DNA of 64,000 nucleotides, taken from an uncultured Prevotellaceae bacterium (GTDB lineage: Bacteria > Bacteroidota > Bacteroidia > Bacteroidales > Bacteroidaceae). Numbering within the stretch: position 1 is the first letter of the stretch; every line of letters starts with the position of its first letter. The notes below the pieces were generated by a model. The model worked only from the letters and a program-made list of their open reading frames with translations. It was not told the origin of the DNA and ran no database searches. Shown here piece after piece: positions 5,316-34,242 of the stretch. The translations under genes were made by a program, and so were the position numbers. The DNA is taken from NCBI GenBank assembly GCA_902800185.1, contig CADCDK010000006.1, positions 5,655 to 69,654 of the forward strand, in the 5' to 3' direction.

Positions 5316-7361
5316 CTATTTGTACAAGGTATATTTGCCCGCAATATCCGTCAGGCCATTGAGACCATTGGGATTATATACTACGATGAGACAGCGGCCA
5401 CCCTCTTCGCATCGCATCCAGATGTTGCCCTGGCTGTCGAAATGGATATTGTCAGCTTTCTGTACGATATAACCACCCATGTAGCGAGGAATCTTGATTT
5501 CGGTATTCATCTGCTTCTGCAAAGTTGGTTTGCTGCTGCCCGTGCTAAACAAGGCAAACTTATTCCCTGCGGCATCAGTTCTTATCCACCCAAAGCCGCC
5601 CTTTCGTTGAGACAGTCCGGCAGTGTTCAATGAGATATTGTTGAACGTGGTTGACGTGGTCCAGTCGAACTTGTCAGCTGCCGTCTTTGCAATTTTGTTC
5701 TCTCCTACAAGGAAGATGCTGTCGCCAATCTGTTCGATTTGCAGTGCCTTCTCCTTGACGAGGTCGGAAAGCTGAGTATCGCCTTGCATATCGTAGCCGT
5801 CATCGCTGCCATTGTTTCTCATCACGGCAGCACGGTAGGCATTGACTCCAAAGAGATCGCCCTTGTCTGTTACGGCGTAGAGTAACCAATCGCCACCGCA
5901 TTTTTTGATTACCTTGTTATTATCTTTCAGGTCGTAAACCGTGATATTCTCGTCACCATAGGCCAGATAACGGCCGTTGGGCGAGATGGCGAAAGGCTTG
6001 GGGATGCCCGTGGAGAGCCACCCGTGTTTCACTTCACCAACAAGTGGTGATGACTCCACGCTCTTTCCATCGAATTTCACGATACCCCGACCGTCAACAT
6101 CGAGATAGAGTGTATGATCGTGTACGGTAAAAGCCTTGATGTTAGGACGGTTACCACTACTCTTTCCTTTGACGACAGCTTTGGTGGCTCCCGTCAGTTT
6201 GTTGACAGCGATGATGCCGTTCTCACCTGACGTATCTTGTATCACATAGACATTGTCGGCATCCTCTGCAAAAGGATAGTCGAAGTAGGCACCGTGCTCA
6301 ATGATAGCGAAGCGAGCATGGTTTTTAACGCCCACAAGTCCATGCTCCTTAGGTTCCCTGGGCTTCTTGGTGATGGAGTCCTCTGGCTCCTTAGGCTTCT
6401 TGGGTATAGAATCCTCTGGGATAATCTTGATGATGCTGTCGCAGAGGTGCAGTTTCATGTCTTTTCCTTTTCCCGTAACGGTGGCAATACAGCCTTTGGG
6501 CGTCTTCTTCAGGTGGAAATGTTTCTTGAAATAGTCTATCATGTCAACACGCTTGAACCGCCCGGCAGCTTCCTTCTGGTACTCCGTGGCATTGGCCCGC
6601 AGTTTATTGGGCGAACCAAAGTGCTGCATCTCTGTCAGGGCTCCCATGACCTTACCCAACGCTGCGACATCGAATGTTGCCGGCTCCTTGGCTTCAGAAT
6701 AGGAGAATACCACCACCACAATCTTGTCATAGTCTTCATCGTAATAGGTGTACAGGTCGTACACCTCTTCAATGTTAACTCCTGTCATCAGTGTCAGCAG
6801 CGAATTGCTCATATCCATCTTCCATACGATATGCCCTCCTTCATGTCCGTTGAACATAAGCTCTTCAGGCTGCGACTGGGAGATATAGTCTTGATATCCG
6901 CCATGCTTGGTATGGGAGATACGAGCATCGTCAAGAGCATTGCCGACCTTGTCGCGCAGTCCTTCCCACATGGCAGCCCAGAGACCAATCTGCGAGCCTG
7001 CATAGCTACCACCTGCCGTCAACGCTCCTCTTGCCGACTCCTTTCCGTCGAATACGAACACTGTAGTGCGGGTCTTTCGAGCGAAGAAGAGGTCGGTGTA
7101 GTATTGCATTTCAGGTGTCATCCCATCAACCTTGGTGTCCGCCAAGACATATTTGCTTGATGAGATCTGCATCATGCGCTGTTCAAGTCCCGGGAAGATG
7201 TATTCTGGATAAGCCTCAATGGTTCCGTCAACATCATCGAAATAGAAATAGGTCGTCTCCAGCGTCTTACGGCTTTTGTTGACCGATGGTTGTGCCCATG
7301 TACCGATGGCAAGGCACAGCACGCTGACAATTAGGCAAGATAAACGTTTCATAGGCTTCAT
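5316..7361 (-). CDS. Secreted protein of unknown function with a C-terminal beta-propeller-like region
   Basis: I do not recognise the family. The 681-residue protein has a signal peptide (about residues 1-23, ending GTWA). The N-terminal region (25-305) is mixed. A charged Pro/Lys/Glu linker with two near-copies of a PEDSI-KKP-EPxxx unit (about 315-340) follows. The C-terminal half has repeated strands such as NGRYLAYGDENITVYDLKDN and DSQGNIWMRCEEGG, which read like propeller blades. An HEGGH pentapeptide at 173-177 matches HExxH literally but lacks other zincin features. It probably acts in the periplasm or at the surface. It precedes nothing in a clear operon and ends 12 nt from the convergent AEC gene. 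Confidence 0.6.
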   Translation of the reverse strand: MKPMKRLSCLIVSVLCLAIGTWAQPSVNKSRKTLETTYFYFDDVDGTIEAYPEYIFPGLEQRMMQISSSKYVLADTKVDGMTPEMQYYTDLFFARKTRTTVFVFDGKESARGALTAGGSYAGSQIGLWAAMWEGLRDKVGNALDDARISHTKHGGYQDYISQSQPEELMFNGHEGGHIVWKMDMSNSLLTLMTGVNIEEVYDLYTYYDEDYDKIVVVVFSYSEAKEPATFDVAALGKVMGALTEMQHFGSPNKLRANATEYQKEAAGRFKRVDMIDYFKKHFHLKKTPKGCIATVTGKGKDMKLHLCDSIIKIIPEDSIPKKPKEPEDSITKKPREPKEHGLVGVKNHARFAIIEHGAYFDYPFAEDADNVYVIQDTSGENGIIAVNKLTGATKAVVKGKSSGNRPNIKAFTVHDHTLYLDVDGRGIVKFDGKSVESSPLVGEVKHGWLSTGIPKPFAISPNGRYLAYGDENITVYDLKDNNKVIKKCGGDWLLYAVTDKGDLFGVNAYRAAVMRNNGSDDGYDMQGDTQLSDLVKEKALQIEQIGDSIFLVGENKIAKTAADKFDWTTSTTFNNISLNTAGLSQRKGGFGWIRTDAAGNKFALFSTGSSKPTLQKQMNTEIKIPRYMGGYIVQKADNIHFDSQGNIWMRCEEGGRCLIVVYNPNGLNGLTDIAGKYTLYK

Positions 7362-24995: not shown

Positions 24996-25003
24996 CAAAA
25001 ATA
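24996..25003 (-). promoter_or_regulatory. -7 promoter element of the nusB operon
   Basis: Minus-strand TATTTTTG followed by C matches TAnnTTTG, about 38 nt before the nusB start and divergent from the rplY promoter. Confidence 0.5.
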
Positions 25004-25076
25004 AAAAAAATATGTAGAACACACAAGAAAGACTACCTTTTTCTATGTTATTTTTGTAATTTTTCAGCATTTATCT

Positions 25077-25106
25077 TTTGACTTTCGGCTTTTTTTTATA
25101 CCTTTG
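25077..25106 (+). promoter_or_regulatory. Promoter of rplY-pth-hslR
   Basis: TTTG at 25077-25080, an 18-nt spacer and TACCTTTG at 25099-25106 form a near-consensus Bacteroidetes promoter. The leader before the rplY ATG (25190) is about 75 nt. Confidence 0.75.
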
Positions 25107-25189
25107 CACCGCTTTTTTGAGCACATCGTGTGATGGCGAATTAAGCAAAACGAGATTTACAACTTAATTTAGAGTAACACAAATTTATT

Positions 25190-25786
25190 ATGAAAGAATT
25201 TGCATTGACCGGTAAGAAGCGTGAAACCGTTGGAAAAAAAGCTTCTAAAATGATGCGCAAGGAAGGACTTGTTCCCTGCAACATCTATGGTGAAGAACTT
25301 GTTGAGGGCAAGCCCGTAGCAACAGCATTTGCCATTCCCATGGCAGACCTCCGCAAGGCTATCTACACACCCGAGATCTATCTCATCAACCTCACCATCG
25401 ACGGCAAGGAGCGCAAGGCCATTATCAAGGAACTGCAGTTCCACCCCGTTACAGACGCCCTGCTGCACGTTGACTTCCTCGAAGTAAACGAGACGAAGCC
25501 CATCACCATCGGCATTCCCGTGAAGCTCAATGGTCTGGCTATCGGTGTACGCAATGGTGGTAAGCTGAACCTCTCCATCCGCAAGATCAACGTCACTGCT
25601 CCCTACAAGCAGATTCCTGAGATCCTGAACATCGACGTTACCAAGCTGGAGCTCGGAAAGAGCATCAAGGTGGGCGAGCTGAGCTTCGAGGGTCTTCAGA
25701 TTGCAACATCTCCCGAGGTTGTTGTATGTTCTGTGAAGGCTACACGTGCTTCTCGTTCTGCTGCTGCCGCAGCTACCGAGGCATAA
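25190..25786 (+). CDS. rplY: 50S ribosomal protein L25 (general stress protein Ctc type)
   Basis: The 198-residue two-domain form of L25: an N-terminal 5S rRNA-binding domain (with the KMMRKEGLVPCNIYGE block) and the C-terminal TL5/CTC beta domain. It ends in an Ala-rich tail. It heads a plus-strand operon with pth and hslR, all linked to translation. Confidence 0.95.
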   Translation: MKEFALTGKKRETVGKKASKMMRKEGLVPCNIYGEELVEGKPVATAFAIPMADLRKAIYTPEIYLINLTIDGKERKAIIKELQFHPVTDALLHVDFLEVNETKPITIGIPVKLNGLAIGVRNGGKLNLSIRKINVTAPYKQIPEILNIDVTKLELGKSIKVGELSFEGLQIATSPEVVVCSVKATRASRSAAAAATEA

Positions 25787-25804
25787 ACTGATGAACGATT
25801 TTAC

Positions 25805-26389
25805 ATGGACAAATATTTAATTGTGGGACTGGGAAACCCTGGCGACGAATACGCCGATACCCGCCACAACACTGGATACATGGTATTGGACGCTTTCGCA
25901 AAGGCGTCCAATATTGTTTTCTCAGACAAGCGGTACGGCTATGTGGCAGAGACATCCCTCAAAGGACGGAAAGTCTTCCTGCTGAAGCCCACCACCTACA
26001 TGAACCTCAGCGGGAACGCCGTGCGCTATTGGCTCAACAAAGAGAACATCGACCAAAAGCGGCTGCTCGTCGTCTCTGATGAAGTGGCACTTCCTTTGGG
26101 CGCTTTCCGTCTCAAGGCCAACGGCTCCAACGGTGGACACAACGGATTGGGACATATACAGCAACTCATCGGACAAGACTATGCCCGCCTGCGCATGGGT
26201 ATCGGCAACGACTTCCCCAAGGGGATGCAAATCGACTGGGTGCTGGGTCACTACAGCGAGGAACAACAGAAAATCCTGCAACCCGCCATAGACACAGCCG
26301 TGGAAATCATCAAGAGCTTCGTACTGGCAGGCATAGACATCACGATGAACCAGTTCAACAAATTGGGAAAGGGAGTTCCTCATGAATGA
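25805..26389 (+). CDS. pth: Peptidyl-tRNA hydrolase
   Basis: Releases peptides from prematurely dropped peptidyl-tRNA. The 194-residue enzyme has the N-terminal [20 protein letters not shown] signature, the catalytic histidine H21, and conserved [10 protein letters not shown] and NGGHNGL motifs. It overlaps hslR by 8 nt. Confidence 0.96.
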
Positions 26390-26792
26390 AGCCCGCATAG
26401 ACAAATGGCTATGGGCAGCACGCATTTTCAAGACCCGCTCCATCGCTGCCGATGCCTGCAAGAACGGACGTGTCACCATGGGAGGGGTCAACGTCAAGCC
26501 TTCACGCCCCATCAAAGAAGGCGAAATCATCCATGTCAAGAAACCACCCATCACCTATTCCTTCAAGGTTCTGAAGACCATTGAGCAGCGTGTGGGTGCC
26601 AAACTCATTCCAGAGGTTTACGAGAACGTCACCGACCCGAAGCAATACGAACTGTTAGAGATGAGCCGAATCAGCGGCTTCGTCAACCGCGCCAGAGGAA
26701 CCGGACGCCCCACCAAGAAAGAACGCAGGGCACTCGATGCCTTTGTCGATCCCGCCCTCTTCGGATTCGATGACGAATTCGACGAAGACTGA
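26382..26792 (+). CDS. hslR: S4-domain RNA-binding protein (Hsp15-like)
   Basis: A 136-residue protein with an N-terminal S4 domain ([16 protein letters not shown], residues 5-20, and [19 protein letters not shown]). Hsp15 binds stalled 50S subunits carrying peptidyl-tRNA, which fits its overlap with pth. The acidic C-terminus ends at the boundary of the accessory island; a palindromic repeat begins 2 nt after the stop. Confidence 0.92.
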
Positions 26793-26794
26793 CT

Positions 26795-26843
26795 CAAGGC
26801 AAGCACCGTTCCTTTTGAAGTTTTTCGTTCAAAGGCGTGCTAC
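26795..26843 (+). repeat. 49-bp palindromic repeat, copy A
   Basis: This segment matches 27593-27641 at 41 of 49 positions. It can fold as GCAC...CCTTTTGAA-loop-TTCAAAGG.GTGC. It starts just after the hslR stop and may double as its transcript end. Confidence 0.7.
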
Positions 26844-27030
26844 CACGGCAATGAGCGTTTCACCGATGATGGATATCAAACTCAGCATCTATACGGCTGA
26901 GAAGCGCGACTATCCCAAGGAAGTGACTGGCGGTATAACAGCCCCGCGCAATATGAAGGAGGCCATCACCCGCGAACAGTCGCTGCGTGCCATGACCATC
27001 AACGTGGCCCGTCAGTTCCATCAACAAATG

Positions 27031-27063
27031 AGGGCTGGCACTCAGAATGGTGTCAGCCCTTTT
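27031..27063 (+). terminator. Terminator-like hairpin after the remnant
   Basis: AGGGCTGGCAC (27031-27041) pairs with GTGTCAGCCCT (27050-27060) with one G-U pair, followed by four T. It fits the end of the degraded gene at 26851. Confidence 0.6.
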
Positions 27064-27066
27064 GGT

Positions 27067-27108
27067 TATCTTTGCAACCAAACCCCATTCATGAATAAGA
27101 AAAAGTGA
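27067..27108 (+). other. Promoter-like element and MNKKK micro-ORF
   Basis: TATCTTTG at 27067-27074 matches the -7 consensus and lies inside a 7-bp inverted repeat (TTTGGTT / AACCAAA). Seventeen nt later ATG-AAT-AAG-AAA-AAG-TGA (27091-27108) encodes MNKKK. This may be the orphaned 5' end of a deleted gene or a leader peptide. Confidence 0.3.
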
Positions 27109-27122
27109 TAACAACCGTATTT

Positions 27123-27143
27123 ACCAATAACCAATAACCGATA
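27123..27143 (+). repeat. Heptamer tandem repeat (ACCAATA x3)
   Basis: ACCAATA, ACCAATA, ACCGATA; its last unit runs into the 43-bp interspersed repeat copy B. Confidence 0.75.
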
Positions 27144-27178
27144 TAAACCAAAACCATGAAAACCCATTTCTGCGAAAT
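27136..27178 (+). repeat. 43-bp interspersed repeat, copy B
   Basis: Matches the minus strand of 62-104 at 41 of 43 positions and ends with the palindrome ATTTC-TGC-GAAAT. Confidence 0.8.
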
Positions 27179-27203
27179 GAAAAACCCCGCTACGCTGAAA
27201 AAC

Positions 27204-27253
27204 CTCTATCTTCCTTTGTCTCCCTCTATCTTCCTCTATCTTCTTTTATCTCC
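27204..27253 (+). repeat. 10-bp tandem repeat (CTCTATCTTC x5)
   Basis: Five 10-mers: CTCTATCTTC, CTTTGTCTCC, CTCTATCTTC, CTCTATCTTC, TTTTATCTCC. Function unknown. It is part of a roughly 900-bp stretch (26793-27705) with no intact gene. Confidence 0.75.
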
Positions 27254-27361
27254 ATAGTCTAGAATTTTTCGCGGTTTTTGTCTTCAGGAAGAACGTGCCT
27301 TGTAACTCTTCGGATGCGGTGTGCTTTCATCCTCCCAATTCTACAGCAAAACTATTGTCCT

Positions 27362-27415
27362 TTAACTTCCCCAAGCGAGCATAGCGAGCTAACTTCTTTA
27401 ACTTCATTAACTTCG
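27362..27415 (+). repeat. 9-bp tandem repeat (TTAACTTCN) with an 18-bp insert
   Basis: Units TTAACTTCC, then the 18-bp segment CCAAGCGAGCATAGCGAG (27371-27388), then CTAACTTCT, TTAACTTCA and TTAACTTCG. The insert is exactly two repeat lengths and contains a GCGAG...GCGAG direct repeat. Confidence 0.8.
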
Positions 27416-27464
27416 TCTTTTTCCTTGCATTCTGATGCAAATTAATGGCTTTTCTTTGCAAAAA

Positions 27465-27586
27465 GTCAGTACCAAGTGGGTTGGTACTGACAGTTCCAAG
27501 TTTTCAACACTCGCTGGTACTGAGAATTCCACTGAGTGGTACTCCCAGTACCACGGGCAGGTAACAAGCCTACCGCTTAGTGGTAG
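27465..27586. repeat. Cluster of inverted repeats with TGGTACTG/CAGTACCA cores
   Basis: An 11-bp perfect stem (27465-27475 with 27481-27491, loop GTGGG) is followed by TGGTACTG (27515-27522) pairing with CAGTACCA (27546-27553) and CTACC (27570-27574) pairing with GGTAG (27582-27586). It could be a structured RNA or a protein/recombinase binding array. Confidence 0.7.
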
Positions 27587-27592
27587 TGATGC

Positions 27593-27641
27593 CAAAACAA
27601 GCACCGCGCCTCTTGAAGTTTTTCGCTCAAAGGCATGTTAC
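27593..27641 (+). repeat. 49-bp palindromic repeat, copy B
   Basis: Matches 26795-26843 at 41 of 49 positions in the same orientation, 798 bp downstream. The palindrome is less perfect than in copy A. It ends 16 nt before the -7 element of the XRE gene. Confidence 0.7.
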
Positions 27642-27657
27642 TTCTAAAATTTCTTCG

Positions 27658-27665
27658 TATCTTTG
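27658..27665 (+). promoter_or_regulatory. -7 promoter element of the XRE/peptidase/primase operon
   Basis: TATCTTTG, followed by C, matches TAnnTTTG. The expected start near 27672 gives a 34-nt leader to the ATG at 27706. Confidence 0.55.
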
Positions 27666-27735
27666 CTCACAGAACACCCATGGGCGAGAATAACTAAAAA
27701 CCGATATGGAGAGACAACGCTATAACAGGCTAAAG

Positions 27736-27810
27736 GCTGCGAATGAGCGAGTGCAGAGTGTAGTTCACTTAGACTCTGCCGAGCGGGAGCAGGCTCGAAC
27801 GCAGTTCAAG
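27736..27810 (+). repeat. 75-bp inserted element, family 1 copy A
   Basis: Lies between codons AAG and ATT of the XRE gene and encodes 25 in-frame residues. It shares GCGAGTGCAGAG, GCCGAGCG and TCGAACGCAGTTCAA with copy B at 27871, with diverged spacers. GCAGAG and CTCTGC inside it can pair. Confidence 0.85.
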
Positions 27811-27870
27811 ATTGTTTTGGCTGAGAAAGAAAGAACTGGCACTTGGCTCTCTGAGCAGATGTGCCACAAC

Positions 27871-27945
27871 TTTTTCGATAAGCGAGTGCAGAGCCGAACT
27901 CGTTCGAGCTATGCCGAGCGTAGAAAAAGTCGAACGCAGTTCAAT
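27871..27945 (+). repeat. 75-bp inserted element, family 1 copy B
   Basis: Exactly 75 bp, between AAC and ATT of the XRE gene, in frame. It is the same family as 27736-27810. Confidence 0.85.
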
Positions 27946-27975
27946 ATTTGTACCGTTTCACGTTGGATGACCAAC

Positions 27976-28008
27976 CGCTCGGCCCTCTGGGACGCTTGCC
28001 AAAGCAAG
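27976..28008 (+). repeat. 33-bp inserted element, family 2 copy A
   Basis: Begins CGCTCGGC and ends in GCTTGCCAAAGCAAG; 33 bp, so the reading frame is kept. It is inserted after AAC. Confidence 0.8.
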
Positions 28009-28030
28009 AAGGTGCAGCCATCTGTGGAAC

Positions 28031-28059
28031 CGCTCGGCTTTGCCGCTTGCCAGAGCAAG
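28031..28059 (+). repeat. 29-bp inserted element, family 2 copy B
   Basis: Begins CGCTCGGC and ends GCTTGCCAGAGCAAG, like 27976-28008 but 4 bp shorter, so it shifts the frame of the XRE gene. It is also inserted after AAC. Confidence 0.8.
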
Positions 28060-28203
28060 AACTCTACGAGGTAATACGCCAACTTGACGTTGATGTGAGA
28101 TGCCGACTTCTATTATCGAAATAGTAGAAAAAACGTAAAGAAATAAATAATGGATAATCCTAAGACAGATAGTCTCAAAGAAATACAAGATGACAATTAG
28201 ATT

Positions 28204-28728
28204 ATGGATAGAGAGCAATTAGTTATAAATAGAACAAATATAAGTGCCTTTGATACTTTTAATAGGGAATATGCTTTGAAGGCTATTTCCATCTGCAGTA
28301 TTTTGGGTAAGTTCCAAATTATAGCCGTCGATTATGATGACTCTCTATATGTGGATAAAATAGACCTTAAAGAATATGAAGCATTTGGAAATTACATCAA
28401 CAAAGAAGAATATGATGCATCCTCAACTTATGCAGAGATAATCGTAAATGAAAGTGTGTGCAGTAAACTTAGGTTAAGTGAGCAGGAAATGATGGCTGCA
28501 ATTGCTCACGAAATTGGTCATATTATGTTCTTTTTCAAGTCAGACAAAGAAAAATATGGAGGACAGGCTGAAGAAGTTTATTGCGACCAGTTCGCATGTA
28601 AAATAGGGCTGGCAAAACCTCTCTATACGTTGTTGAATAAACTAGTACTATCTGGTAATTATCAAGAAGAACTAGTTCAACAAATAAAAAATAGACTAAT
28701 TTATATAATGATGTTTTTGATATATTAA
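28204..28728 (+). CDS. ImmA/IrrE-like zinc metallopeptidase, C-terminus frameshifted
   Basis: The 174-residue AT-rich gene product has HEIGH at 102-106 (two zinc histidines and the catalytic E103) and a downstream QAEEVYCDQFAC segment (121-132) that can give the third zinc ligand, as in ImmA/IrrE-type gluzincins. Family members cleave XRE repressors in response to DNA damage or other cues, and a XRE gene lies upstream. Dropping two nucleotides (AT) in the TATAT tract near 28702-28706 lets the frame continue NDVFDILKGLLVDVNN and on to a stop at 28794-28796, 1 nt before the next gene. Confidence 0.7.
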   Translation: MDREQLVINRTNISAFDTFNREYALKAISICSILGKFQIIAVDYDDSLYVDKIDLKEYEAFGNYINKEEYDASSTYAEIIVNESVCSKLRLSEQEMMAAIAHEIGHIMFFFKSDKEKYGGQAEEVYCDQFACKIGLAKPLYTLLNKLVLSGNYQEELVQQIKNRLIYIMMFLIY

Positions 28729-28797
28729 AAGGCTTGTTAGTTGATGTAAATAATATGGAAATTTTGAATAACTTACAACTTATAAAAATAAATTAAA

Positions 28798-31473
28798 ATG
28801 GACAATGTTCTTGTAATTTCGGAAGATGGTTCAACTATTATTTGTTGCGACAAATCGTATTCTGGCGTAATAACTGTTCCAGATGGTATAAATAGTATTG
28901 GAGACAATGCTTTTGAAAATTGTTCTTTAAGCAAAATAGTGTTACCATCATCCTTAAAAAGGATTGGTCGAAGGGCTTTTGCAAATTGTGCTAACTTGGT
29001 AGATGTCGTGCTTTGCGAAGGAATTGTTAAAATATGCCCTTCTGCTTTTTCTGGTTGCATTTCTTTGTCATATATTTATTTGCCAATAAGTCTAAGCGAT
29101 ATTGGAAAGGATAATTATTCAGAAGGAAGTGTTTTTGAGGGATGCATCTCTTTGGAATCAATTGAAATCCCCAAAGGTATTAATGAAATACCGAGAAGAA
29201 CGTTTTCTGGCTGTGTTAACTTATCAAGGATACGCATACCAGAAACGATAAGAACTATTGGCTATGATGCTTTTGATAATTGTGTGAGTTTGCAAAAGGT
29301 GATTATTTCAGATGTAATTAGATGGTGCTATGTAAAAAAGCTGTCTAACCCTTTATCTTATGCCCATCATTTATATATCGATGAAAAAACAGAAATTGTT
29401 AATCTTGAGTTACCAGAAAAAATAGGTTCCATAAGTGCTCATACATTTGAGAATTGTACAGGATTAAAGAGTGTTTGTTTTCCTGACGGCCTTGTGGACG
29501 TTGAGCATGATGCATTTAAAGGGTGTATAGGATTAAGGGAAATTACTTTGAATAGTAAAAATGTAGGAGAAATCTTAAATGCATTTGACGGATGTGATAA
29601 CGTTGAGATAATTAAAATAAAGCATTTTACTCCAAACTTTTGTTTCGGTCTTAGGGGATTTGAGAAGCTGAAGGCTGTCTATTCAATTGGTAAAGATGGT
29701 ACAAAAACTAAAATTGACATTGATAATGTCATAACTTCAAAGCTAAAAGAAATGAAACTTATGTCCATGTACTATCATAACTTGGATATGAATTTAACGA
29801 TGGTACAAGGAAGATACCCAAACAAAGCCTCTTTTAAAGCCCCTATTGTTAAAGATGGAATGCTGTTAGAAGAATTATATAATTCAAAACAAAAAACATC
29901 CACTTTACTTAGGCAAGATTGGATAAATGCATCTGGAATGGGGTTAGTTTTAGGGTGGAATGATCTTAGAGCTCTTGATTTTGACAATTTTACTTCATAT
30001 GTATTTGGAGATTGTGATTATAGCCAAGACGAAATGAGAGATCATATTGCCTCTTGCCTAGTGTTATTAGGATTGCCAAAGGATTATCAATGGGTTGTTT
30101 GGTCTGGTAGTAAAAGGGGTTTTCACATCATAATCCGAGTGAAAGATTTTGAAGAAAGAGAATCATCTCCAACTTCTTATGGCTATTATCCATACTTTTC
30201 AACAAGCAAAAGGATTGAATTACGATGGAAAGGGCATCTGATTTTGCCACCAAGTATTCACAATAGTGGAGAAACATACAACTTTTTCAACGATCAAATT
30301 CCAACAACTGGACCTGCCTATATAGATTTAGGAAAGATAGATAATTTGTTGGATTATTATTGTGGAGAAAACCATTACCATACTTATAATTGGGGAGAGA
30401 GGAGTTTTGAAATAGTTGAAAGAATAAGAAAGAATGCTTACTCTGACAGCCTTGGTGTACACTATGATTCAAAGAAAGAGAAAAGGAACCGCAATTACAT
30501 ACAATGGTTAGAAAATTGCGGAACTTCACAGGCATATAATTCTCTAGCCATAAAATATCTTCTTGGTGAAGATGTTCCTGCCAATAGGTATAAAGCGTTT
30601 GAGTATTTCAAGAAAGCATCATTGCTAACCTCAACATCAATTATCGAAAAGATAACTTTTGGTGAAAAGCCCATTATTCATAGAGTAAATATTGACAACA
30701 GTCATGCTTTATTTAACATTGCTTCTTTGATGTCTATAGGCTATTTTGAAGGAACCCAGCAAGAAATCAATGATTATCTTGAGGAAATAAATATCGAAGA
30801 CCTTTACTTACCTGGTGCTGGAAATGAATATTTTCCGGAAGATGAAATCGAGCCTAAGATTGATAGAATTAGGAAACAATCTGCAAAATACTTACATAAT
30901 ACCACCTACCTTTTCTTCGACACAGAAACGACAGGAGCTCCCGTTGATTATAAGGCACCAAGTTCGGATACAGAGAATTGGCCTCGTATGGTGCAATTAG
31001 CTTGGATTTTGGAAGATGAAAATGGTATTAAAATTGACTCTGGCAATTTAATTATTATTCCAGATGGTTTTATTATACCTGATGAGGCTGTGAAAATTCA
31101 TGGAATTACAAAAGAAAAGGCATTGAAAGAAGGTGTACCATTGGAATATGCAATCAGACAGTTTAAAGCAAATTTGGATGTAGCCACTTGTGTTGTTGGC
31201 CATAATGCTGATTTCGACAAGAAAATTGTTGGTGCAGAAATGATTAGACTTGGAATGAAAGACATTATGGATTCCAAGAAAAGCTATTGCACTATGCAAT
31301 CTTCTATTGATTTCTGCAAGATTCCAGGCAAATATGGCTACAAATATCCTAAACTTCAAGAACTATATAGGAAACTCTTTGAAACAGAGTTTGATAATGC
31401 CCATGATGCAATGAGTGATATCGAAGCAACAGAGAAATGCTTTTGGGAATTAAGAAAACGTAAACTGATATAA
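28798..31473 (+). CDS. LRR / primase-polymerase-like / Sel1 / DEDDh exonuclease fusion protein
   Basis: A cytoplasmic 891-residue protein with no signal peptide. Residues about 1-275 are BspA-like leucine-rich repeats (units such as IGDNAFENCSLSKIVLPSSL). Residues about 365-525 look like an archaeo-eukaryotic primase/polymerase domain: LDFD (393-396, metal aspartates D394 and D396), SGSKRGFH (436-443), RIELRWKG and ILPPSIHNSG (482-491). Sel1-like helices cover about 577-660. Residues 703-886 are a DnaQ-like exonuclease: DTETTG (D708, E710), GHNADFD (H802, D805) and HDAMSD (H869, D874). All key residues are present. It follows the zinc peptidase and is AT-rich, suggesting transfer. I know no described system with this architecture; a defence or replication-conflict role is inference. 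Confidence 0.8.
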   Translation: MDNVLVISEDGSTIICCDKSYSGVITVPDGINSIGDNAFENCSLSKIVLPSSLKRIGRRAFANCANLVDVVLCEGIVKICPSAFSGCISLSYIYLPISLSDIGKDNYSEGSVFEGCISLESIEIPKGINEIPRRTFSGCVNLSRIRIPETIRTIGYDAFDNCVSLQKVIISDVIRWCYVKKLSNPLSYAHHLYIDEKTEIVNLELPEKIGSISAHTFENCTGLKSVCFPDGLVDVEHDAFKGCIGLREITLNSKNVGEILNAFDGCDNVEIIKIKHFTPNFCFGLRGFEKLKAVYSIGKDGTKTKIDIDNVITSKLKEMKLMSMYYHNLDMNLTMVQGRYPNKASFKAPIVKDGMLLEELYNSKQKTSTLLRQDWINASGMGLVLGWNDLRALDFDNFTSYVFGDCDYSQDEMRDHIASCLVLLGLPKDYQWVVWSGSKRGFHIIIRVKDFEERESSPTSYGYYPYFSTSKRIELRWKGHLILPPSIHNSGETYNFFNDQIPTTGPAYIDLGKIDNLLDYYCGENHYHTYNWGERSFEIVERIRKNAYSDSLGVHYDSKKEKRNRNYIQWLENCGTSQAYNSLAIKYLLGEDVPANRYKAFEYFKKASLLTSTSIIEKITFGEKPIIHRVNIDNSHALFNIASLMSIGYFEGTQQEINDYLEEINIEDLYLPGAGNEYFPEDEIEPKIDRIRKQSAKYLHNTTYLFFDTETTGAPVDYKAPSSDTENWPRMVQLAWILEDENGIKIDSGNLIIIPDGFIIPDEAVKIHGITKEKALKEGVPLEYAIRQFKANLDVATCVVGHNADFDKKIVGAEMIRLGMKDIMDSKKSYCTMQSSIDFCKIPGKYGYKYPKLQELYRKLFETEFDNAHDAMSDIEATEKCFWELRKRKLI

Positions 31474-31503: not shown

Positions 31504-31511
31504 TAACTTTG
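31504..31511 (+). promoter_or_regulatory. -7 promoter element of the truncated DUF1016 gene
   Basis: TAACTTTG followed by C, 13 nt before the ATG at 31524, leaving almost no leader. It shows the remnant still has its original promoter. Confidence 0.5.
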
Positions 31512-31523
31512 CAAACGATTAAT

Positions 31524-31754
31524 ATGGAACAGAAACAAATAACAGCGACGTATGCTGAGGCTGTAATGGCTATCAAGGAAGCAATATTGGAGAGTCGCTA
31601 TCGTGCAGCACGGTTAGTAAACAAAGAAGTGCTGGCTCTTTACTATGCCATTGGCGGGTATATTTCCGTCCAAAGCAGAGCAGCAAGATGGGGCAGTAAA
31701 AGAATCACGGGGACGGTTCTCCTGATTCACGTAAACAATAGAACAAGGAACTAA
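31524..31754 (+). pseudogene. Truncated DUF1016 / YhcG-type PDDEXK nuclease gene (5' fragment)
   Basis: The 76-residue product keeps only the N-terminal helical domain: TYAEAVMAIKEAILESRYRA and LVNKEVLALYYAIGGYIS, followed by a degenerate WGSKRI where relatives continue into a long helical region and a nuclease domain. The tail after residue 55 looks unrelated. Full-length relatives have roughly 330-380 residues. They often travel with restriction-modification loci, so this is probably debris of such cargo. The start at 31524 fits the promoter just upstream. Confidence 0.72.
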
Positions 31755-31782: not shown

Positions 31783-32400
31783 ATGTATCAAGAAAGGAAC
31801 CATATAAAGGTGTTCGTGTCATCAACGGTGTATGACTTTGAGTCACATTTGGACATGGTGTACTCTACACTGGACGGCTATGGGTACGATGTGATGATGT
31901 CGCACAAGGGAACGATTCCACTTGATAGTAAGTTGAGCAATCTGGAGAACTGCCTAAAGGGAGTTGAGGACTGCGATGTATTCCTTGGATTCGTCAGACC
32001 TCTGACTGGTACGGGCATCCTAAAACCTGGAGAGAAATCCATCACGGCACAGGAGTTTGAGGTGGCTTTCAGGGTAAACATGCCACGATTCGTGCTGGCA
32101 GACTATCGCGTGGTTTTTGCACGCCAGTTTACCAATCTAATGAAGATACCGACTGGTGACATACCCAACTCTGTAAAGAGAGAACGAAGTGACGGAAGCA
32201 TCGTAGAGCGTCCCAATAGAGTGGTTCATGCTGAATGTATAGAGCTGTATAATGCTGCCATTCAGAATAATACTCTTCCCAAAAGCAGGAAGGGCAACTG
32301 GGTGCAAGAGTATAGGAACATGCAGGACGTGATGCTGCACGTGGAAGCACAATTTAAGGATGTTGAACGTATAAAGCAATTGATAGGAAGTCATGAGTAA
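31783..32400 (+). CDS. DUF4062-domain protein
   Basis: A 205-residue protein whose N-terminus (IKVFVSSTVYDFESHLDMVY) matches the TIR-like DUF4062 fold often found at the front of STAND-type NTPases and as single genes in defence islands. A CDVFLGFVRPLTGTG segment and an SITAQEFEVAF helix follow. Catalytic activity is not established for the family. Its stop lies inside the start of the next gene (8-nt overlap), so the two products are probably made together and may interact. Confidence 0.8.
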   Translation: MYQERNHIKVFVSSTVYDFESHLDMVYSTLDGYGYDVMMSHKGTIPLDSKLSNLENCLKGVEDCDVFLGFVRPLTGTGILKPGEKSITAQEFEVAFRVNMPRFVLADYRVVFARQFTNLMKIPTGDIPNSVKRERSDGSIVERPNRVVHAECIELYNAAIQNNTLPKSRKGNWVQEYRNMQDVMLHVEAQFKDVERIKQLIGSHE

Positions 32401-33772
32401 CAATGGATTTATAGAGACATTGCTCTCGCAGAAAGACGAGAGTTTTAGGCTTAGACTGCTGGCAGAGTATAATGCCGAAACAGTCATGCGAATAGTGTGT
32501 GCCTTCCTGAATAACGACGGCGGATGGATTGTTATAGGTGCATCTGAAGATGGAGCACGGACGGGTGTAGATGTTGAAGCGGTTGTGGCTGATATACAGC
32601 GAAATACCGTACAGCGAATCAAGCCCCTTCCACTGGTGTACATTCATGCTGAGGATTATCAGGATGGCAAAGTAGTGCTGGTGACAGTGATGAAAGGAGG
32701 TCTGCCTCCCTATTCGTTTGATTCAAGTTATTACACAATGGCTGGCGACCAGGTAGTCAAACCAAATACCGACGAGGTGAACCTGTTGATTCGCCGCTCA
32801 ATGACTTCATCCTCATCTTGGGAGAAAAGTACTTGTCTTGACGCAGAATGGGAGGATCTGAATGTAAATCTCATGCACGAAGTGGTTTGTAAAGGATTGG
32901 AAAGAGGCCGATTAGACGAGCGTAACAACACCCCGGAAAAACTCCTTGGCAATCTACAATTAGTCGATACCCCCAATGTAAAGAATGGAGCAATGGCTTT
33001 GTTTGGACAAGAGACTCCCAGATTTCTTCCGCAGAGCAGGATGCGGATACAAGTGATGCTGGGAGGAAAAGCGGCAAGCCAATATGAAGATACAGTAGTG
33101 ATGGAAGGAAATCTGCTGGAATTGTCGAAACGTGCAAGCGATTACTTTCTAAATCGATTGCCGATGGTCAGTGAATTCCACCATAAGGAATGGGACAGAA
33201 AAGATTACTCGGAATACCCACAGGATGTTTTGGACGAGGCTGTAACGAATGCCCTGATTCACCGGAACATGAGCGACACAACGGGTGAAGTGCTTGTGTT
33301 CATCTACGCAGACAGAATAGAGGTTATCAACCCTGGAACAATGCCTGAAAACCTAATAAAGAAAAAGAATGTGGTGCAGCCTCATGTGTCCACTCCAAGA
33401 AATCCGTTGATGGCAGAAATATTCTATGTCGCCGGGAAAATGGAAAAGACAGGAAGAGGGTTGAAACTGATTCACGACCAGATGAATGACTTGAAGCGTA
33501 AATTGCCCGAATGGGAATGTCTGGACGGAAGAACGAAACTAACCATATATCGCACACCCAATGACGTTAAGTTGAATGCCAGAGTAACCGAATATATAGC
33601 CACAAAGAAGGTAGGAGGCAGTTTCTCTAAGCAAGACTATCTGCAATATTGGAATTATAAGATTTCCGATCCGACAGCCAAAAACGACCTGCAACAGATG
33701 GTGAATGCAGGCCTCTGCCGGAAAGATGGTTCTGGTCCTGCTACGAGGTATGTAGTATTGGCTAACAATTAG
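32393..33772 (+). CDS. AlbA_2 (Schlafen-like) / GHKL-ATPase / winged-helix protein
   Basis: The 459-residue protein starts with a divergent AlbA_2 putative nucleic-acid-binding domain (about 10-135, with FLNNDGGWIVIGASEDG). A GHKL ATPase-like domain (about 250-390) has the N-box EAVTNALIH (N286) and the glycine-rich GKMEKTGRGLKLI. A C-terminal winged helix (about 393-455) may bind DNA. Such proteins are usually annotated as ATP-binding or transcriptional regulators. The 8-nt overlap with the DUF4062 gene makes a two-gene module. Its stop codon lies in one arm of a 12-bp inverted repeat. Confidence 0.82.
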   Translation: MSNNGFIETLLSQKDESFRLRLLAEYNAETVMRIVCAFLNNDGGWIVIGASEDGARTGVDVEAVVADIQRNTVQRIKPLPLVYIHAEDYQDGKVVLVTVMKGGLPPYSFDSSYYTMAGDQVVKPNTDEVNLLIRRSMTSSSSWEKSTCLDAEWEDLNVNLMHEVVCKGLERGRLDERNNTPEKLLGNLQLVDTPNVKNGAMALFGQETPRFLPQSRMRIQVMLGGKAASQYEDTVVMEGNLLELSKRASDYFLNRLPMVSEFHHKEWDRKDYSEYPQDVLDEAVTNALIHRNMSDTTGEVLVFIYADRIEVINPGTMPENLIKKKNVVQPHVSTPRNPLMAEIFYVAGKMEKTGRGLKLIHDQMNDLKRKLPEWECLDGRTKLTIYRTPNDVKLNARVTEYIATKKVGGSFSKQDYLQYWNYKISDPTAKNDLQQMVNAGLCRKDGSGPATRYVVLANN

Positions 33773-33954: not shown

Positions 33955-34242
33955 ATGGCAAAACGTAAAGAAATAAGAAACAGTACAGCCGAGTTCTTGA
34001 TCTTCCAGATAGAGGGAAAAGAACAGGGAATTGAGGTGTACTATAAAGACAAAACAGTTTGGTGTACCCAGAAAGCGATGGGGATGCTGTTTGATTGCAC
34101 TTCTGACAATATAGGTGTACATTTGCAGAATATCTATGATACTCAGAAATTGGATAGGGAGGCAACTACCGAAAAAATTTCGGTAGTTCGGCGTGAGGGT
34201 AATAGAGATGTCAATCGTACGTCTAATTGGAACGACATCTAA
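33955..34242 (+). pseudogene. Truncated RhuM-family gene (5' fragment)
   Basis: The 95-residue product has the N-terminal RhuM domain: AEFLIFQIEGKEQGIEVYYK, TVWCTQKAMGMLF and NIYDTQKLDREAT, then a degraded VNRTSNWNDI where relatives read RTLNFYNLDAIISVGYRVNS. Full RhuM proteins have about 330 residues. The family is typical of mobile and restriction-associated islands. This is the last piece of the island before yraN. Confidence 0.75.

Follow-up and report, generated by a model that had tools for sequence, protein, structure and literature searches.

The 64,000-nucleotide DNA stretch analyzed here (the window in what follows) comes from an uncultured Prevotellaceae bacterium (assembly GCA_902800185.1, contig CADCDK010000006.1, forward-strand positions 5,655 to 69,654). 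It carries a gene in which a primase-polymerase (PrimPol) domain of the archaeo-eukaryotic primase (AEP) type is joined to a DEDDh 3'-5' exonuclease. The reading frame starts with ATG and its coordinates are exact (Table 1). The original prediction, made without database searches, had proposed leucine-rich repeats (LRR), a PrimPol, Sel1 repeats and a DEDDh exonuclease in one protein, and this combination was borne out by the open reading frame (ORF), Pfam, PADLOC and PHROGs, with Sel1 below its cut-off. Prim-Pol (PF09250) matched residues 370-500 (E 1.1e-7) at 32.8 bits against a curated cut-off of 22.8. The Sel1 match at residues 578-610 (E 2.6e-4) reached 21.9 bits, under the cut-off of 30.7, and Pfam also weakly matched a Sel1-like region in two of the related proteins described below (L110 and L134; L and G numbers are our handles for loci and genomes). 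For the exonuclease, the Pfam match to RNase_T (residues 706-880, E 1.4e-13) agreed with the DEDDh model of PADLOC (4.2e-26) and with phrog_192 of PHROGs, "DNA polymerase exonuclease subunit" (3.2e-34).

Table 1. Features of the PrimPol-exonuclease gene and of its neighbors in the window.
Feature	Position	Strand	Basis
Coding sequence LRR - PrimPol - Sel1-like - DEDDh, 891 aa	28798..31473	+	ORF + Pfam
BspA-type leucine-rich repeats, residues about 25-274	28870..29619	+	Pfam LRR_5 E 1.1e-50, LRR_8 2.8e-9
Prim-Pol (AEP) domain, residues about 320-516; D394, D396, H443, E474	29755..30345	+	PF09250 + alignment
Sel1-like helical region, residues about 578-652	30529..30753	+	Pfam Sel1 578-610; rest by eye
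DEDDh 3'-5' exonuclease domain, residues about 700-891; D708, E710, D807, H869, D874	30895..31470	+	
XRE regulator gene with four short insertions; open frame ends at 28074	27706..28101	+	blastn to relatives, alignment to L277
Zincin (HEIGH) metalloprotease-like gene, variable slot	28204..28728	+	sub-threshold SprT/M48/M78; phrog_2767
Truncated DUF1016_N/YhcG fragment, remnant of the right anchor of the cassette	31509..31754	+	Pfam, PADLOC, blastn
DUF4062 gene and Schlafen/AlbA_2-HATPase gene adjoining the cassette	31783..33772	+	Pfam

The DxD at 394/396 and the SGSKRGFH (436-443) and ILPPSIH (482-488) blocks lie where they had been predicted, and the acidic residue E474 lies between the two blocks. 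We take the DxD, the histidine of motif II and the third acidic residue to be the active-site motifs of the Prim-Pol. In the exonuclease, four of the five predicted catalytic residues (D708, E710, H869 and D874) were correct; the second aspartate had been placed at D805, and alignment moves it to D807 in the stretch GHNADFDKK. D807 is kept in eight of 11 aligned proteins, the window's included, whereas position 805 is variable (D, G, A, Y, E, S or K). An ordinary BspA surface protein was ruled out by the two nucleic-acid enzyme domains and by the lack of a signal peptide by eye. The gene is A+T-rich, with a GC content of 34.3% vs. 45-54% in 1-kb windows of positions 25000-27999. In sequence searches of the PDB the PrimPol matched no AEP chain, the DEDDh domain gave weak TREX1 matches (best E 0.0011), and a profile of six DEDDh domains (A3) gave no match at E 0.001.

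Eleven proteins, the window's among them, combine this Prim-Pol type with a DEDDh half, which in some is degenerate; the others are encoded at L110, L238, L095, L096, L112, L134, L097, L098, L239 and L241. Pfam was run on nine of the 11 (all except L096 and L098). PF09250 scored above its cut-off in L110 (29.4 bits), L238 (27.7), L095 (39.9), L097 (37.1), L239 (30.6) and L241 (44.9) and just under it in L112 (21.3), and did not match L134. The complete order LRR-PrimPol-Sel1-DEDDh, which had been claimed for the window, recurs in L110 (38% identity over the full length) and in L238 from another genus of the family (35% over 859 positions), where the Sel1 region is recognized by alignment only. 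A chance fusion or assembly error was ruled out by this repeated order. The remaining architectures differ: L095 has an FGE-sulfatase domain after the PrimPol-DEDDh part (Pfam 3e-29), as L096 has by similarity, L112 has extra regions at its N- and C-terminal ends, and L097 (473 aa) and L098 (461 aa) are nearly bare PrimPol-DEDDh proteins. Pfam matches no exonuclease domain in L239 or L241, and their C-terminal half is recognized by alignment alone.

The PrimPol part was matched in five of 393 genomes of the order, the own genome included, and profile A2, built from five PrimPol domains, matched four of 200 genomes of the genus (the own genome, G426, G457 and a dead relative in G575) and two of 301 genomes of the family (the own genome and G920). 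At the phylum level 15 of 395 genomes were matched: the own genome, one with a fusion (G1164) and 13 with replication-like frames of 699-813 aa. A scan of a collection of genome contigs was dominated by LRR proteins, and tblastn with the PrimPol, Sel1 and DEDDh parts (E 0.01) matched none of the 80 loci from that scan (L009-L088). Viral scans with the PrimPol part returned nothing or only replication-type proteins (L138, on the same contig as L242, and L243), and the phages collection gave no match to residues 300-701.

Both catalytic sites are kept in most fusions. The PrimPol residues D394, D396 and H443 are present in 10 of the 11 aligned proteins, all except L134, and E474 in all 11; all five DEDDh residues are present in eight, and by alignment L098 lacks two, L239 three and L241 four of them. 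Since residues have been lost in some fusions, each site is dispensable in some lineage, and the predicted "self-contained synthesizing and proofreading" unit is not supported in this form, with a degenerate exonuclease in three fusions and a dead PrimPol in one. Dead PrimPols, which exist inside the family (L134) and outside it (L280 and L289), raise another possibility, that the PrimPol is a non-catalytic sensor of nucleic acids or nucleotides and that the DEDDh domain acts on RNA or short oligonucleotides and not on the DNA ends of an invader. The fusions with active PrimPol residues come from several bacterial families, and conservation of this breadth argues against a sensor-only PrimPol, which we regard as possible though unlikely. 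The two pseudo-primase relatives outside the fusions have neither the DxD nor the motif histidine. One (L280:5160-6275, 371 aa) lies in the hotspot described below, has WG-like repeats by eye and is PrimPol-like by hhalign (probability 89.6%, E 1.9e-6); the other (L289:5960-6712, 250 aa) combines a dead PrimPol-like domain (E 1.6e-7) with hydrophobic helices by eye.

Outside the fusions, the closest PrimPol domains found belong to replication-type proteins: L240, the one Pfam-scanned protein from the 13 phylum genomes, and the viral L138 and L243, all with Prim-Pol plus PriCT-2. These mobile-element PrimPols are of the same Prim-Pol type and share its motif residues (the window PrimPol is 33% identical to L138 and 35% to L243). 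Unlike the fusions, they continue into an extended C-terminal region, a helicase by eye without a match in Pfam, and have no DEDDh, LRR or Sel1 match, and in a PrimPol tree of 29 rows all 11 fusions formed one group against 18 replication-type proteins (100/99). A mobile-element or repair polymerase, in which the PrimPol would prime or extend, the DEDDh domain would edit and the LRR and Sel1 parts would tether the protein to the replisome, could be expected to keep its PrimPol residues in 10 of 11 fusions, to have PriCT-2 proteins as nearest outside relatives (L240 adjoins a phage integrase) and to carry an exonuclease of the phage "DNA polymerase exonuclease subunit" family. The nine Pfam-scanned fusions showed no PriCT or helicase, which argues against such a polymerase, as does the independent exchange of the exonuclease described below; we consider it distinctly unlikely. 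For the window protein a plasmid or phage replication protein was ruled out, Pfam recognizing neither PriCT nor a helicase.

At E <= 1e-20 profile A3 matched 15 of 398 genomes from the genus, the own genome included. Inspection of the loci of most of these genomes gave, in addition to the fusions, stand-alone DEDDh genes of 190-212 aa (L131, L132 and L133), a DEDDh protein that ends in a hydrophobic helix (L135) and proteins of more remote kinship (L113 and L137). The stand-alone gene L132:6170-6754 lies near C5 DNA methyltransferase-like and HNH endonuclease-like genes (by eye). We built a DEDDh tree of 56 rows, which excluded the three degenerate halves and lower-ranked viral rows. It pairs the window with L109 (96/82) and L110 with L111 (100/99), and the stand-alone L132 and L131/L133 adjoin these two pairs; L109 and L111 are cassettes introduced in the next paragraph. 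A single clade for the eight PrimPol-linked DEDDh domains was rejected (p-AU 2.7e-132; L097 and L113 form long branches), and with it a proofreading polymerase inherited as a single unit. DEDDh relatives with up to 59% identity are encoded in 312 viral stretches, of which 80 were kept, and among these best 80 of 312 stretches, 71 of 74 DEDDh ORFs are at most 272 aa. Viral members of the same DEDDh family (phrog_192) are thus almost all stand-alone, whereas the window's is fused. Because the exonuclease is akin to phage exonuclease subunits and the PrimPol to replication-type proteins, the fusion looks as if it was assembled from invader parts.

Three loci from relatives in the window's genus, L109, L110 and L111, share the cassette order XRE - variable companion - [arm]-DEDDh - YhcG, with a 110-aa gene between the DEDDh gene and YhcG in L110 and L111 (L130 is 99.9% identical to L111 and was counted with it). 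The ImmA-like protease predicted as the partner of the window gene is not a fixed one. The window has a zincin in this slot, L109 a trypsin-like protein (Trypsin_2; RT-Protease_XI 2e-14), L111 AbiH (1.6e-53) and L110 a 335-aa protein with no Pfam or PADLOC match, and the companions showed no real similarity when compared with each other (best E 0.12). The arm before the DEDDh domain varies as well, being LRR+PrimPol+Sel1 in the window and L110, LRR in L109 and WG repeats in L111. Pfam found no Prim-Pol in the arms of L109 and L111, which have a further N-terminal stretch in common (34.6% over 133 positions).

The point of exchange can be placed in L110 and L111. Their XRE genes are 86% identical in DNA, and blastn (E 1e-5) found no match between the XRE gene and the start of the DEDDh domain. 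From L110 position 9736 to the end of the L110 contig the two loci are 93.8% identical over 1819 bp. This identity starts at L110 residue 645, the first of YLFFDTETTG and the start of the DEDDh domain, and a weaker match at the protein level extends back to residue 608. The break in identity, together with the disagreement of the DEDDh and PrimPol trees, shows that the exonuclease is a shared tail onto which arms have been swapped, at least within the genus. The same exchange argues against an editing polymerase and against the predicted self-contained unit, since the DEDDh domain moves independently of the PrimPol and sits in sister cassettes on LRR or WG arms without any Prim-Pol.

At E <= 1e-15, an XRE gene resembling the one in L109 was matched in 105 of 200 genomes from the genus, in one case (G424) as three copies of 93-100% identity; the own genome, which carries an interrupted copy, was not matched at this threshold. 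We sampled ten further XRE places from many (L274-L283; copies 76-99% identical). Across L109, L110, L111 and L274-L283 the XRE genes are 71.6-90.7% identical to that of L109 in DNA, and different cargo lies downstream. The YhcG (DUF1016) nuclease lies to the right in eight of the 14 distinct loci (the window, as a fragment, L109, L110, L111, L274, L279, L280 and, again as a fragment, L283), and at the other six (L275-L278, L281 and L282) the contig ends before YhcG could appear, in L281 about 0.4 kb from the XRE gene. PADLOC was run on selected proteins of L109, L110, L111, L274, L275, L277, L278, L280 and L282. YhcG aside, parts of named defense systems were found at four of these loci: L282 (Shango: SngB 1.6e-164, SngA 4.3e-27), L278 (TmtA 8.1e-48, N-terminal part only), L111 and L109. 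In L274 there was a single weak match to PtuA (3.3e-4), and the L110 companion, the L275 and L277 cargo and the 371-aa protein of L280 had no PADLOC match. At Pfam E 0.01 cargo remained unmatched at L275:1292-3259 (655 aa), L277:2143-5526 (1127 aa) and L280 (371 aa), and L276 has a full-length RhuM of 338 aa after the XRE gene (Pfam 1.6e-106). Constant flanks, exchanged cargo and known defense systems among the cargo identify a cassette-type defense hotspot, and the defense-rich setting that had been predicted is real insofar as relatives of the window gene sit in a hotspot whose cargo includes Shango, AbiH and TmtA-like proteins.

Cassette hotspots of E. coli and Pseudomonas have fixed flanking genes. 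Their defense cargo changes as it does here, according to the portions of the two reports consulted (PMC10121019, PMC10250203), and measured against the same portions an exchange boundary that also cuts through a protein, where its DEDDh domain begins, is a feature of the XRE-YhcG hotspot. A Prim-Pol in a conflict setting also has a precedent in the characterized CRISPR-associated Prim-Pol (CAPP), which has a TPR region in the part of that paper available (PMC8211822); in comparison with CAPP so described, the window protein has a DEDDh half and an LRR arm, and its genome has no Cas1. The existence of such Prim-Pols, and the label CRISPR-associated that PADLOC gives to its DEDDh model, would fit a role in spacer acquisition. 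Cas1 (PF01867) was not found in the own genome, which is 83.6% complete (a control was found in nine of 14 genomes), and no cas genes were recognized at related loci by eye, without a dedicated cas search; we regard this role as extremely improbable. As to novelty, no PrimPol-DEDDh fusion appears in the titles and abstract openings of the literature matches listed, in line with the predicted "undescribed" status, and a mention in the AEP survey of Iyer et al. (2005) is possible. In the main text of a survey of mobile-element PrimPol families, as far as that source was available, "exonuclease" occurs 0 times (PMC5862659).

The window protein, a real fusion with relatives at a defense-swapping hotspot, is probably an undescribed defense protein. 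On balance we favor the view that the window protein is cargo of an exchangeable defense cassette, in which the DEDDh domain would be the effector and the N-terminal half an arm for recognition, exchanged along with the small companion gene. We infer this function, the role of each domain and the substrate. The LRR and Sel1 repeats would most likely bind a phage or companion protein. The PrimPol, akin to the primases of mobile elements, would most likely dock on single-stranded or primed DNA of the replicating invader and perhaps synthesize on it; docking would put the DEDDh domain, presumably active given its residues, on 3' ends for degradation. The XRE protein would keep the cassette off. 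A bolder form of the defense proposal, which we hold tentatively as an unlikely variant, is an immune enzyme of synthesis and erasure: upon infection the arm would release the PrimPol to make or extend DNA on 3' ends of invader or host, the DEDDh domain would trim the product, and the balance of these two activities would block phage replication. This would parallel the polymerase-based immunity of defense reverse transcriptases, but on a primase fold, and its sensors would be swapped onto a common exonuclease by way of the XRE-YhcG hotspot.

Several observations weigh against cassette-borne defense. PADLOC-DB 2.0 assigned the window protein to no named system and gave only the DEDDh and PDC-S48 exonuclease matches. 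The XRE gene served to select the hotspot loci, so its presence there is by construction; PADLOC covered selected proteins only, and the L275 and L277 cargo was unmatched. Exonuclease residues are lost in three of 11 fusions and PrimPol residues in one. DEDDh domains of the same clade also occur alone (L131-L133), so the exonuclease need not depend on an arm. L095 and L096 occupy the same site in the chromosome, surrounded by what by eye are housekeeping genes, and no defense gene was recognized in the neighborhoods of L112 and L134. In the window itself the XRE, companion and YhcG genes look damaged, and normal regulation of this copy may therefore be lost.

Such damage, which extends to a RhuM-like gene, would also fit a decaying island gene without current function, its architecture a chance by-product of recombination. 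The frame of 891 codons is intact with every catalytic residue kept, however, and the domain order persists at 38% (L110) and 35% (L238) identity, which makes decay very unlikely. The fusion unites a primase-polymerase with an exonuclease of the proofreading type in what appears to be an immune protein. If confirmed, the cassette-cargo reading would extend the role of primase folds in bacterial immunity beyond CRISPR. The XRE-YhcG hotspot would be a place where putative protein sensors are swapped onto a shared effector at a precise domain boundary, and a source of further defense candidates, e.g., the Pfam-unmatched cargo of L275, L277 and L280.

The predicted upstream XRE regulator is present in the window; it is not intact, being interrupted by four short insertions in alignment to L277. 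The insertions fall into a longer kind (two, each about 75 bp) and a shorter kind (two, each about 30 bp). The longer kind has a second copy, 77% identical, at G000:C6:3016-3092, and the XRE gene of L283 seems to carry the short kind at the matching place; they are perhaps a small dispersed repeat that enters genes. The predicted ImmA-like protease has the HEIGH motif of zincins, with Pfam matches below threshold only, and matches phrog_2767 (2.9e-11), a PHROGs family of unknown function. Within 28204-28794 the zincin stops at 28728 and another frame continues almost to the start of the PrimPol gene, so by eye the zincin frame seems broken near its 3' end. The YhcG fragment matches DUF1016_N just under the Pfam cut-off (5.8e-7) and PDC-S02 of PADLOC (1.8e-14), and its DNA is 87-96% identical to YhcG of relatives. 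The DUF4062 (2.8e-16) and Schlafen genes (HATPase_c_4 1.4e-16, SLFN_AlbA_2 4.8e-13) lie beside the cassette in the same island. A RhuM-like fragment of 95 aa follows at 33955-34242 (PDC-S05 4.7e-27).

Other fusions lie in varied surroundings, and those of L239, L241 and L097 count in favor of a defense role. L239 neighbors genes for a type I restriction subunit (HSDR_N 4.9e-50) and for an IetS-like subtilase (1.4e-40). Carried by plasmid pHsw1 of Hymenobacter swuensis, L241 is flanked by a sacsin-domain AAA helicase (TmtA 1.4e-35, MkoA 2.7e-25) and a DinG-type helicase (1.4e-76). L238 adjoins a DUF1016_N fragment (2e-9), and L098 is on a contig of 5.6 kb. L097 adjoins a PLD gene and lies among phage genes that run on the other strand (head maturation protease, phrog_53, 1.5e-46). 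The gene for the dead PrimPol-DEDDh protein at L134:5687-9027 lies between transposase-like pieces (by eye), as if inserted into a transposase.

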